Shown in pieces: positions 53,964 to 58,239 of a stretch of 64,000 nucleotides of DNA. Origin of the DNA: a virus; the IMG/VR virus record IMGVR_UViG_3300034107_000273, positions 1 to 64,000 of that record, one strand, 5' to 3'. A program made the position numbers and the translations under genes. The notes beneath the pieces were generated by a model. That model searched no databases. It saw only the letters and a program-made list of their open reading frames with translations, and had not been told where the DNA came from. Position 1 is the stretch's first letter, and the number at the start of each line of letters is the position of its first letter.

Positions 53964-54482
53964 ATGACCTGCATTGCTGGAATAATGAAAGAAGGCAAAG
54001 TATATCTTGCTGGAGAACGAGGAGCCTCTGAAGGCACCTACATAGTACCTATTGACAAACCAAAAATATGGAAATCTGGTCCTTATGTCTTTGGATTTGC
54101 TGGAACCTTTGATGGTCAAATTATTCAATATAACTTTATTCCACCTGCCTTAGAGGGTAATGTTGATAAATTTATGCATGGTAAGTTTTTAAAATCACTT
54201 AAAGCATTTTATAGTGAATGGGATATTGGTGGTAAAGATAGCGAGTTATCATTATTAATTGGAGTAAAAGGAAAGCTCTATGAGCATGATGCAGATGGAC
54301 TAACTCTGATGTCCTATGACAGAGATTATTGTGCAATAGGTTCAGGTGCAGATTTTGCTATGGGATCACTTTTTGCCACACAAACACATAAAGATCCAAA
54401 ACGTCGCCTTACATTAGCATTAAATGCAGCAGTTGCCTTTAGCACTTCTTGTATTGGCCCAGTTGACATAATTCAAGGTTAG
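53964..54482 (+). CDS. HslV/proteasome-like N-terminal-nucleophile hydrolase
   Basis: 172 residues. Begins MTCIAGIMKEGKVYLAGERG, so removal of Met would expose Thr (T2) as the nucleophile, as in HslV and proteasome beta subunits. Other family landmarks are KPKIW then FGFAG, YCAIGSGADFAMGSLFA and the C-terminal ALNAAVAFSTSCIGPVDII. No ATPase partner (HslU or ARC) is in the window. Possibly a phage protease acting on host or virion proteins, or a relative with another activity. Ribosome-binding site GGAGAGG, 8 bases ahead. Confidence 0.8.
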   Translation: MTCIAGIMKEGKVYLAGERGASEGTYIVPIDKPKIWKSGPYVFGFAGTFDGQIIQYNFIPPALEGNVDKFMHGKFLKSLKAFYSEWDIGGKDSELSLLIGVKGKLYEHDADGLTLMSYDRDYCAIGSGADFAMGSLFATQTHKDPKRRLTLALNAAVAFSTSCIGPVDIIQG

Positions 54483-54497: not shown

Positions 54498-54716
54498 ATG
54501 GATGAAGAATTTCAAGAAATATTAAAAAATATTCAAGATTCAGAATCAGACTATAAAGAGTTTGAAATATGGATTAAAAATGGGATTGAACGTGGATGGA
54601 TAACAGAACCATTTTGTAATACACATGATGGAGATCCATACATGAGTGAAGAAGAGTTAGAAGAGTGGGACCAAGGTGGCGACCCATGTCAGGTAGTAAT
54701 TAGAATAAAGCTATAG
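54498..54716 (+). CDS. Small acidic hypothetical protein
   Basis: 72 residues, strongly acidic, with EFQEILKNIQDSESDYKEFE and SEEELEEWDQGGDP. It ends in a strand (CQVVIRIKL). Own leaderless-type promoter. Acidic phage proteins of this size can act as DNA mimics or inhibitors, but there is no direct sign of that. Confidence 0.65.
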   Translation: MDEEFQEILKNIQDSESDYKEFEIWIKNGIERGWITEPFCNTHDGDPYMSEEELEEWDQGGDPCQVVIRIKL

Positions 54717-54718
54717 TC

Positions 54719-54727
54719 TGATATAAT
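54719..54727 (+). promoter_or_regulatory. Extended -10 promoter for hsp20
   Basis: TGA followed by TATAAT at 54722-54727. Start near 54734 gives a leader of about 50 bases made almost entirely of two hairpins. Confidence 0.65.
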
Positions 54728-54731
54728 ATAT

Positions 54732-54782
54732 ATGTACTGCCTGCGGGGGTACATTAACTTATTCGCTTGAAAGGGGAATAAA
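54732..54782 (+). promoter_or_regulatory. ROSE-like RNA thermometer in the hsp20 leader
   Basis: First hairpin: ATGTAC (54732-54737) with GTACAT (54749-54754). Second hairpin: TTATTC (54759-54764) with GAATAA (54776-54781), continuing through a G/G mismatch (54765 and 54775) to CTT (54766-54768) with AGG (54772-54774) and a GAA loop. The second stem buries the AGGGG ribosome-binding site. The opposing strand reads UCGCU, which fits the U(U/C)GCU consensus of ROSE thermometers, including the G opposite G. Found directly before a small heat-shock gene. Confidence 0.65.
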
Positions 54783-55205
54783 ATGGTAAGTGTAATAAAA
54801 CATCCAATGGATCTATTAAATGATCCTTTTTTTATTGGCTTCAACAGAGAGTTGAATCGCCTAAATAGTGCACATAAAACAAACTCACAATCATATCCTC
54901 CATATGATCTTCTTAAACTAGATGAAGATACATATAAGATCTCATTGGCTATTGCTGGATTTTCTAGGGAAGATATTGATGTCTCCGTAGATAATAGAAC
55001 TCTTATTATCAAGGGTGAGATTGTAGAAGTAATAGATGCAGAGGTAGTTCATAAAGGTATCGCAGGAAGAAAGTTCGTAAGATCTTTTGCTCTTGGAGAA
55101 TATATGGAAGTAAGCTCTGCAGAACTAAGGGATGGCATGCTACATATTAACGTAGTCCGCACTGTCCCTGAAGAAAAGAAACCTAAGACAATTAAGATAA
55201 AGTAA
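54783..55205 (+). CDS. Small heat-shock protein (Hsp20/IbpA type)
   Basis: 140 residues. ATP-independent holdase. The alpha-crystallin core runs from YDLLKLDEDTYKISLAIAGF through DIDVSVDNRTLIIKGE and GIAGRKFVRSFALGE to ELRDGMLHINVVR, with the G-x-L-like turn GML. A short N-terminal arm (PFFIGFNRELNRL) and the basic ending KPKTIKIK contain the I-x-I motif (IKI). Phage copies occur in cyanophages and others and may protect capsid or tail proteins. Translation is likely heat-controlled by the leader hairpin. Confidence 0.92.
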   Translation: MVSVIKHPMDLLNDPFFIGFNRELNRLNSAHKTNSQSYPPYDLLKLDEDTYKISLAIAGFSREDIDVSVDNRTLIIKGEIVEVIDAEVVHKGIAGRKFVRSFALGEYMEVSSAELRDGMLHINVVRTVPEEKKPKTIKIK

Positions 55206-55312: not shown

Positions 55313-56356
55313 ATGAAATTTAAATTCATTACTTTACCAGTAGCATTAGCCATTTTTGCTAATGCTTTTTTTATTACTACTTCACATGCTGATAACCTAC
55401 AAGGTGCTGGATCCACATTTGCTGCTAACTTTATAGACAGATGTAGGGTTGAATTTATTAAATCAACAGGAGATTCTGTTGTATATGGAGCATCTGGATC
55501 GGGTGCTGGTAAAAATATGTTTTCAAATGGTGTAACAGATTTTGCTATGTCAGATGTTCCTTATTCTGGATCAGAACTAAAACCATCAAAAGAATTTACA
55601 TATGTTCCATTAGTCGCAGGACCAATTGGAATTATATACAATCTTGATGGATATAAAATTACTATTAAGATGAGTAAGGATACTCTTGCTAAAGTTTTTG
55701 CGGGACAAATAACAATGTGGAATGATCCACAGATATTAAAAGAAAATATGATAGGAACAAGACTGCCAAAGATACCATCAACAAAGATCAGAGTTGTTTA
55801 CCGTATTGATGGATCTGGAACTTCAGAAGTATTTACGTCATACCTTAACGCAATTGCTCCAAATATATGGACAAAGCCAGGTAATAAAAATTTTATATCT
55901 GCATTTCCTGGTGATATATCTAAGCAATATATGAATAGTGCTTCTGGTTCACATGGCATTGCAATGGTACAGAGTACTACAAATGGATCTATTGGATACA
56001 ACGAGATATCTTATGCAAGAGGACTTAAAACTATTTCTGTTGAGAATGAATCTGGAAGGTTTATGCAACCAACAGTTAGTGCAGCATCTGTATTTCTTGG
56101 AGATTTTGTTCCAGATAAAAGTGGGGCAGTTAAAATAAATTATAAAAATCCTAATAAACTATCCTATAACATATCTACATTCACCTACGGTATAGCATAC
56201 AAAGAAAAGAACTCAAAGAATGATTCTGTAAAGAAGTTCTTTAATTTTATGTTGGATACATGCGGTAAAAAAGCAGAAGATCTTGGATACTCACCAATAA
56301 GAGGAGCTATGCTTAAGTTTGCAAAGTCAAAGGTAGCAGAAGTAAGTTCAAAGTAG
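55313..56356 (+). CDS. pstS: Phosphate ABC transporter substrate-binding protein (auxiliary metabolic gene)
   Basis: 347 residues from ATG 55313. Starting there gives a clean signal peptide (FKFITLPVALAIFANAFFIT, cleavage after SHA); a GTG at 55223 would put ~30 extra residues in front. Family landmarks are LQGAGSTFAANFIDRC, VYGASGSGAGKNMF, DFAMSDVP, PLVAGPIGIIYNL and VYRIDGSGTSEVF, with the Ser/Asp/Arg residues that hold phosphate. It binds phosphate outside the cell for uptake. Phages of nutrient-poor waters often carry pstS to keep phosphate flowing for DNA synthesis. No pst permease genes here, so it would work with the host transporter. Confidence 0.92.
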   Translation: MKFKFITLPVALAIFANAFFITTSHADNLQGAGSTFAANFIDRCRVEFIKSTGDSVVYGASGSGAGKNMFSNGVTDFAMSDVPYSGSELKPSKEFTYVPLVAGPIGIIYNLDGYKITIKMSKDTLAKVFAGQITMWNDPQILKENMIGTRLPKIPSTKIRVVYRIDGSGTSEVFTSYLNAIAPNIWTKPGNKNFISAFPGDISKQYMNSASGSHGIAMVQSTTNGSIGYNEISYARGLKTISVENESGRFMQPTVSAASVFLGDFVPDKSGAVKINYKNPNKLSYNISTFTYGIAYKEKNSKNDSVKKFFNFMLDTCGKKAEDLGYSPIRGAMLKFAKSKVAEVSSK

Positions 56357-57440: not shown

Positions 57441-57658
57441 TGGATTCTAGAAGAAAGTCATTACTAAAAACCATAAGCTGGCCCTTTGTACATTTTACTT
57501 TTGTTGCTGGAATAATTTATTCTTTGCTTAAGCATTTTACTGGGGAAGCAGAATGGGAATATGTTGGTCTATACGGACTAATGTACCTTACATTAGAAAT
57601 GACTTTCTTCTTTATTCATGAGCGAGTTTGGTCTAAATTTGGTAAAAAGGTAAAGTAA
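57440..57658 (+). CDS. DUF2061-type small membrane protein
   Basis: 72 residues. RKSLLKTISWPFVHFTFVAG and an LEMTFFFIHERVWSKFG ending match the DUF2061 pattern (R-S-x-x-K-x-I-S-W...HERVW). Two membrane segments. Downstream of the endolysin, so a lysis role (holin or spanin partner) is possible; the family has no known function. Confidence 0.75.
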   Translation: MDSRRKSLLKTISWPFVHFTFVAGIIYSLLKHFTGEAEWEYVGLYGLMYLTLEMTFFFIHERVWSKFGKKVK

Positions 57659-58239
57659 TGAAAGTTCTAGGGGATAAAATTTTTATTATAGAAAATTTTA
57701 TATCTGTTGATACTGCAAACTTTTTAGTAGATTCATTTACTGAGAATATACAGCCAACAGTTCACCCTGGAATATACAGCGGACCAGGCCAAGGAGACAA
57801 TGAAGCCTATAAAATCAGTGGTCAACACAAGATCAAGCAATATGATTCAAAAAATAACATTGCTATTGATATAATGACAAGTCTTTGTCCAAGTATGGAA
57901 AAGGTTATGTCTAATGTATTCAATAAAAACCTACAATTAAAGTCTATTTCTTATGTTCATATGAAATCAGGTGGAAAAAATGATCTTCACTATGATAACT
58001 ATAGTGAAGAATACAAGGATGATTACTCAGGTATTTTATATTTAACAGATAAATACTTAGGTGGCGCTTTAAATTTTCCTAACAATGACATAAAAATAGA
58101 GCCTAAAATAGGAGATTTTATATGTTTTGTTGGTGACAACGAACTAGAGCATGAGGTTCAAGAAGTAATTCAAGGAGATCGTGTTAATCTAGTATGTTTT
58201 TTTAATGAAAAAGGAAAAGATATATATGCCAATCTATGA
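57658..58239 (+). CDS. Second 2-oxoglutarate/Fe(II)-dependent oxygenase
   Basis: 193 residues, another prolyl-hydroxylase-like fold. Iron ligands H111 and D113 in NDLHYDNYSEEY, H165 in ELEHEVQEV and the 2-oxoglutarate arginine R175 in GDRVNLVCFF. ILYLTDKYLGGALNFP is the core strand, as in the first copy at 47860, but the two are otherwise quite different. TAATG-coupled to the membrane protein before it. Substrate unknown. Confidence 0.85.
   Translation: MKVLGDKIFIIENFISVDTANFLVDSFTENIQPTVHPGIYSGPGQGDNEAYKISGQHKIKQYDSKNNIAIDIMTSLCPSMEKVMSNVFNKNLQLKSISYVHMKSGGKNDLHYDNYSEEYKDDYSGILYLTDKYLGGALNFPNNDIKIEPKIGDFICFVGDNELEHEVQEVIQGDRVNLVCFFNEKGKDIYANL

Follow-up and report, generated by a model that had tools for sequence, protein, structure and literature searches.

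The hsp20 gene in the viral DNA analysed here (a stretch of 64,000 nucleotides, hereafter the window) is preceded by a short 5′ leader that is likely to act in cis as a compact, ROSE-like RNA thermometer. The anatomy of this leader, its conservation, its covariation and its strict linkage to hsp20 are established, as are its presence at about one copy per phage genome and its cross-recognition with the ROSE leaders of E. coli ibpAB and of Pseudomonas. The comparisons support the assignment of the window leader to a ROSE-like class that is widespread in phages and lies outside the curated limits of the Rfam family ROSE_3.

All parts of the leader lie on the + strand. An extended −10 promoter, TGATATAAT (54719–54727, with TATAAT at 54722–54727), is seen in the sequence and is kept at the same place in freshwater relatives. 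Downstream of it, folding gives hairpin 1 (54732–54754), which has a bulged G54739 in its stem (U-[G]-CC ... GG), the stem being variable and the core conserved. A single-stranded TAAC linker (54755–54758) leads to hairpin 2, TTATTCGCTTGAAAGGGGAATAA (54759–54781), which is predicted to mask the ribosome-binding site: its UUAUUC[G]CUU strand, with the anti-Shine-Dalgarno motif UCGCU (54763–54767; ROSE consensus U(U/C)GCU), pairs with the Shine-Dalgarno (SD) strand AGGGG (54772–54776) and GAAUAA. Hairpin 2 ends at 54781 and is followed by A-ATG, with the start codon of hsp20 at 54783, about 61 bases from the promoter. The gene (54783–55205) encodes a small heat-shock protein (sHsp) of 140 aa with a Pfam HSP20 match (E = 4.8e-18), sHsp relatives in the PDB, an alpha-crystallin domain and a C-terminal IKI; a small ORF (54498–54716) lies upstream of promoter, leader and gene. 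Transcription would start at about 54733–54735, i.e., at hairpin 1, and if this predicted start is right the leader measures about 50 nt, slightly short relative to the ROSE range of about 60 to more than 100 nt.

A first-pass annotation, made from the letters of the window, had located and described this leader correctly as judged by sequence and fold, and the burial of AGGGG in the last hairpin opposite UCGCU, which it reported, is seen both in the sequence and in the predicted structure. Its placement of promoter, two hairpins and gene within 65 bases agrees with the distance given above. The G/G mismatch that it proposed at G54765 stands as the lowest-energy register in the window, where this base faces G54775, with the refinement that a bulged G is possible in an alternative register; AGGAGG variants of hairpin 2 favour the latter. 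The motif G is unpaired in the prediction, and it is invariant in our alignment A2.

In the literature, a ROSE element is defined by a 3′ hairpin in which U(U/C)GCU, with a G predicted to bulge, lies opposite the SD (PMC3669281, PMC11342760). In the NMR structure of the B. japonicum element, the predicted bulged G forms a pair with a G across the stem, so that the ambiguity between G.G pair and bulge is the same as at G54765. The window leader has two hairpins, where the class has two to four; its 3′-proximal hairpin pairs UCGCU imperfectly with the SD, and the leader precedes an ORF with a Pfam HSP20 match.

The 80 viral loci with the nearest Hsp20 homologues show the same layout ahead of the gene, with small variations in a few of them and with one locus (L012) whose sequence begins too close to the gene to show the leader. 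The shared plan is TGNTATAAT, hairpin 1, hairpin 2 and (A/C)ATGGT. Hairpin 2, 23 bases long, is unique in the window, where 0 copies are expected, and a separate DNA-pattern scan for it found hsp20 downstream in every readable case. Over both locus sets, which overlap and of which the 80 nearest were found through hsp20, the gene was scored downstream in 197 of 201 occurrences; of the other four, two lie at contig ends, one precedes a truncated hsp20 and one a GTG start. The hairpin had its exact form in 168 of these occurrences and an AGGAGG form in 33. The 23 bases are unchanged down to an Hsp20 identity of 41%, although the scan pattern itself required those bases. A search by distant Hsp20 proteins (80 loci), which is blind to the leader, was meant to remove this bias: half of the loci carried the exact hairpin 2, and the rest showed divergent versions, among them CTCGCTGAAAAGGAG and CTTGCTTAAAAGGAG, in which U(U/C)GCU opposes AGGAG and both letters of the variable position occur. 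In GTDB, a scan for the exact hairpin returned a single contig (CANGYR010000020.1, from a Chitinophagaceae MAG; our locus L285), again on hsp20, and this looks like a phage contig binned with the bacterium.

More distant phages carry a short form of hairpin 2, CTYGCT...AGGAG. Among 21 further viral hsp20 loci inspected, the leader was absent only in Wolbachia phage WO. It is present in Melnitz (Methylophilales), in the SAR11 phages HTVC008M, HTVC103P, HTVC115P and Mosig, in the cyanophages S-CRM01, Syn1, S-SM1, S-ShM2, S-RIM2, S-PRM1, S-SKS1, ACG-2014f, S-T4 and MED4-213, in the rhizobiophages Phosso and Atu_ph07, in C48C1 and in a marine single-cell virus; the Pseudomonas jumbo phage 30-3 has it in weaker form. 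The common plan is a bulged-G hairpin 1 and then a hairpin 2 of the (C/U)GCU...AGGAG type. The annotated hsp20 start of Synechococcus phage S-T4 (L309, record 108313) appears to be placed too far downstream by about 75 bases: the leader lies upstream of it, as does an in-frame ATG.

The thermometer that we propose would work as follows. The transcript probably starts at hairpin 1, which, with its invariant bulged G, would be a structural partner comparable to the one that opens bacterial ROSE elements. In the cold, hairpin 2 would pair the SD with the imperfect U(U/C)GCU strand and hold translation low; warming would loosen its weak core, with its G-U pairs and either a G.G mismatch or a bulged G, and ribosomes would start on hsp20 at once. 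For Pseudomonas ibpA, thermometer action of two-hairpin ROSE leaders is proven, with 3- to 8-fold induction (PMC3669281). The family ROSE_3 shares with the phage leaders two hairpins before an sHsp gene, an SD in the 3′ hairpin, a free AUG and, in each of the two stems, a bulged G (GAU[G]CCG...CGGGUC and CU(C/U)[G]CU...AGGAG). By analogy, hairpin 2 should damp translation in the cold and open with heat. Repression, thermal opening and a benefit to the phage are what we infer for the leader as a whole; that the chaperone might serve virion assembly, as the first-pass annotation suggested, is conjecture. In Vienna calculations, the SD of the window is open with a probability of 2.9e-7 at 20 °C and 1.7e-4 at 42 °C, against 1.6e-5 and 2.2e-3 for the Pseudomonas ROSE control; phage leaders with short stems are looser (e.g., Melnitz, 4e-4 to 0.04). 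The model predicts a tighter stem in the window than in Pseudomonas, and a temperature effect in the expected direction.

Several points speak against the thermometer: the tight stem predicted for the window, an SD burial energy that ranks only 17th of 49 ORFs, the absence of an Rfam ROSE match to the window leader, and a hairpin 2 that is near-identical throughout the freshwater clade, beyond the needs of a simple melting stem. A serious complement or rival is self-repression, in which an oligomer of the phage Hsp20 would bind its own leader and block translation until unfolded protein draws Hsp20 away. Such a switch would sense the protein stress made by infection, with or without heat, and is compatible with thermometer action; we hold it to be a real, if tentative, possibility. 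E. coli IbpA represses its own mRNA by binding the 5′ ROSE leader via R93, and an aromatic residue at position 34 is required (PMC10474464). The window Hsp20 has an Arg equivalent to R93 and a Tyr equivalent to Y34. Arg was found at the former position in 259/259 freshwater phage Hsp20s and in most isolates, with Lys in two isolates (C48C1 and phi30-3) and Gly in the leaderless Wolbachia phage WO, while position 34 holds Tyr or Phe throughout, except in WO. The sequence of both hairpin cores is also constrained beyond pairing needs, in favour of the same explanation. However, Arg at the R93-equivalent position is common in sHsps without known RNA binding as well, so it is not diagnostic and only permits self-repression, and the cationic residue 98 of IbpA is mostly absent from phage Hsp20s. 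A broader version, which we consider doubtful, would see a phage-own lineage of ROSE-type leader plus Hsp20, spread over phages of cyanobacteria, SAR11, methylotrophs, rhizobia and probably freshwater actinobacteria, which would mainly sense infection-made protein stress via Hsp20 self-repression rather than act as a plain thermometer, and would stand under sigma-70 or T4-type late promoters as required.

It is quite unlikely, in our judgement, that the leader senses nothing, its 5′-terminal hairpin shielding the mRNA and hairpin 2 fixing a low rate of translation. The position of hairpin 1 at or beside the predicted 5′ end would suit such a role, as would a stem predicted to be tight at every temperature computed, but it leaves unexplained the strict restriction to hsp20, the U(U/C)GCU motif with its invariant unpaired G and the recognition by models of bacterial thermometers. 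Energetics do not carry the argument for a thermometer. Both hairpins are present in the minimum-free-energy and centroid structures of the window leader (−16.4 kcal/mol), and 8 of 200 shuffles were as stable (z = −2.15), making the fold alone modestly unusual. The energy needed to open the SD failed as a discriminator inside the window, hsp20 ranking an unexceptional 17th of 49 ORFs. Since the upstream-shuffle energy controls were weak even for known ROSE elements, we do not use energetics as proof; with a fold only mildly unusual and an SD energy that does not stand out, the case rests on comparison.

A covariance model built from seven cyanophage leaders only (R1) had its best match in the whole 64-kb window at 54733–54785 (E = 6.2e-6), the next match having E = 0.56, and it recovered 55 of the 57 freshwater relatives offered. 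On bacterial DNA, R1 recognised the E. coli ibpB leader (27.1 bits), a Pseudomonas ibpA leader (12.4 bits) and the E. coli ibpA leader (9.8 bits; ROSE_2, RF01832); the ibpB leader differs from the phage form in a shorter hairpin 1 without bulged G and in its non-core sequence. Whole phage records gave at most one R1 match each at hsp20, and three gave none at E ≤ 0.1; an extra weak match in S-ShM2 lay inside uvsX and was taken as chance. With a wider model, R2, each record had a single match, apart from Mosig, which showed an additional weak one. The R1 match with E = 0.56 lies at 309–351 of the window, just before a ribonucleotide reductase ORF at 349, and is probably due to chance.

When all leaders were aligned by MAFFT, the 3′ arm of hairpin 1 came to lie in the wrong place; a seven-sequence alignment, for the model, and a permutation test were used instead. 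In the fitted alignment, 99% of cells pair and 155 cells are changed on both sides, compared with 42 in shuffles; such changes affect all seven modelled pairs of hairpin 1 and two of the five of hairpin 2. Because this alignment is fitted, we added the permutation test, which uses sequence anchors only and is independent of it: pairing of hairpin 1 arms with their own downstream region reached 4.71/5, versus 3.51 ± 0.15 with the downstream regions of other leaders, and the maximum in 2000 shuffles was 4.03. Hairpin 1 covaries strongly around its invariant bulged G, and in hairpin 2, U(U/C)GCU is preserved opposite the ribosome-binding site. That the leader arose by chance, or is inherited among close relatives without serving a function, is hardly credible and is refuted by the covariation: a fold z-score of just −2.15 would allow it, but compensatory changes are found at all hairpin 1 pairs, the leader occurs in phages of unrelated hosts at about 30–45% protein identity, and R1 recovered the window leader blindly. 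Loss of pairing in homologous leaders, which the first-pass annotation had named as the outcome that would count against it, was examined and the pairing is kept; its description of the leader as ROSE-like is backed by sequence, structure, gene context, covariation and cross-recognition with bacterial ROSE elements.

Rfam at gathering score gave no match over the window, and a permissive scan of the window leader (E ≤ 10) returned no ROSE family, only a single chance match to preQ1-II (E = 5.7). ROSE_3 (RF02523), with a gathering score of 43 bits, matched below threshold exactly at the leader in nine phage loci (20–34 bits): Melnitz (34.1, E = 6e-4), L244 (31.9), MED4-213 (29.2), Atu_ph07 (28.0), S-SKS1 (27.9), C48C1 (26.8), Syn1 (21.6), L270 (20.6) and S-PRM1 (20.1). 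As a positive control, the Pseudomonas ibpA leader in L305 scored 69.2 bits. A search with ROSE models, proposed along with the original observation, found matches in other phage leaders, at sub-threshold scores, and gave nothing for the window leader itself. In addition to lacking an Rfam match, the latter differs from ROSE_3 in being shorter, in the UUAUUC/GAAUAA extension of hairpin 2 and in its AGGGG SD. Locus L305 (OQ572409.1, Pseudomonas phage Y7, UNVERIFIED) probably represents host DNA or an assembly error, as it contains an ibpA of Pseudomonas type together with a complete ROSE_3 element.

The rhizobial ROSE family (RF00435) has a comparable bulged-G first hairpin (GCC...GG) and a last hairpin with UUGCU against the SD, but also an extra middle hairpin, whereas the Sinorhizobium and Agrobacterium phages have the compact two-hairpin form. 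A search of the virus record with RF00435 gave no match, with the controls silent too; the window leader is without the middle hairpin. Rhizobial sHsp leaders, taken from Sinorhizobium and Agrobacterium plasmids other than those of the exact host strains, do score as RF00435 (two above the cut-off and one just below). We considered that the leader was copied from present hosts and rejected it, since the rhizobial leaders examined are of the longer classical type, unlike those of the two rhizobiophages; with their extra middle hairpin, they argue that the rhizobiophage form is no recent copy of them. In ROSE-G elements a G faces a G of the SD strand, as in the lowest-energy register of the window, but there the motif is CUGCU before ABC transporter genes, not UCGCU before hsp20; the window leader has the opposed G.G in one of its two registers.

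RNA thermometers have been described in phages, and the fourU elements of SPbeta blyA and of a sigma-70 gene in gut Caudoviricetes are phage-borne, as proposed here. These two recent cases, however, are fourU elements on other genes. An earlier case is reportedly that of Altuvia in 1989, and none of the three is a ROSE element or stands on hsp20. The open papers that we searched on RNA thermometers in phages describe fourU-type and other elements and no ROSE on a phage hsp20, and papers on cyanophage sHsps mention no such element; relative to this literature, a ROSE element on phage hsp20 is new. ROSE elements on sHsp genes have been reported in alpha- and gammaproteobacteria and not in gram-positives (PMC10474464); the present leaders extend them to phages of cyanobacteria and probably of actinobacteria. 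Hundreds of sequenced phages carry hsp20 (508 records in a single collection), a gene whose role is not settled, and its leader offers a handle on the conditions under which a phage needs this chaperone and on the reason for it. That nearly all the hsp20 genes inspected have a conserved ROSE-type leader implies that their translation is meant to be switched. Its sharing by phages of very different hosts suggests, from the sequences, that phages may sense heat or protein stress by it, and phage infection is a possible point where warming waters act directly on translation.

The promoter motif TGNTATAAT occurs 16 times in the window, where 6.2 are expected, with 14 of the 16 on the + strand; these sites are probably the phage's set of extended −10 promoters. 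Most T4-like phages examined have instead a TATAAATA- or TTAAATA-like late promoter motif 10–14 bases before hairpin 1, while TATAAT is found at that site in relatives of the window, in the HTVC103P/115P phages and in MED4-213. Judged by these motifs, the leader module is kept while the putative promoter type changes. The T4-type motif was seen before hairpin 1 of hsp20 in L286, L289, L291, L292, L298, L299, L301, L302 and L308, and hsp20 is thus probably a late gene in those phages. Arrays of tRNA genes lie directly upstream of the hsp20 leader in L236, L243, L247, L263 and L270.

A head maturation protease encoded in the window has its nearest matches in Streptomyces phages (41–42%), which makes a freshwater actinobacterium the likely host. 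Two genes before hsp20, the ORF at 53964–54482 matches Pfam Proteasome weakly (E = 2e-4, narrowly missing the cut-off); a phage-encoded N-terminal-nucleophile protease beside the chaperone gene is possible. Directly after hsp20 lies a gene for a PstS-like phosphate-binding protein (55313–56356; PBP_like_2, E = 2.7e-42), and a 2OG-Fe(II) oxygenase gene is located at 57658–58239.
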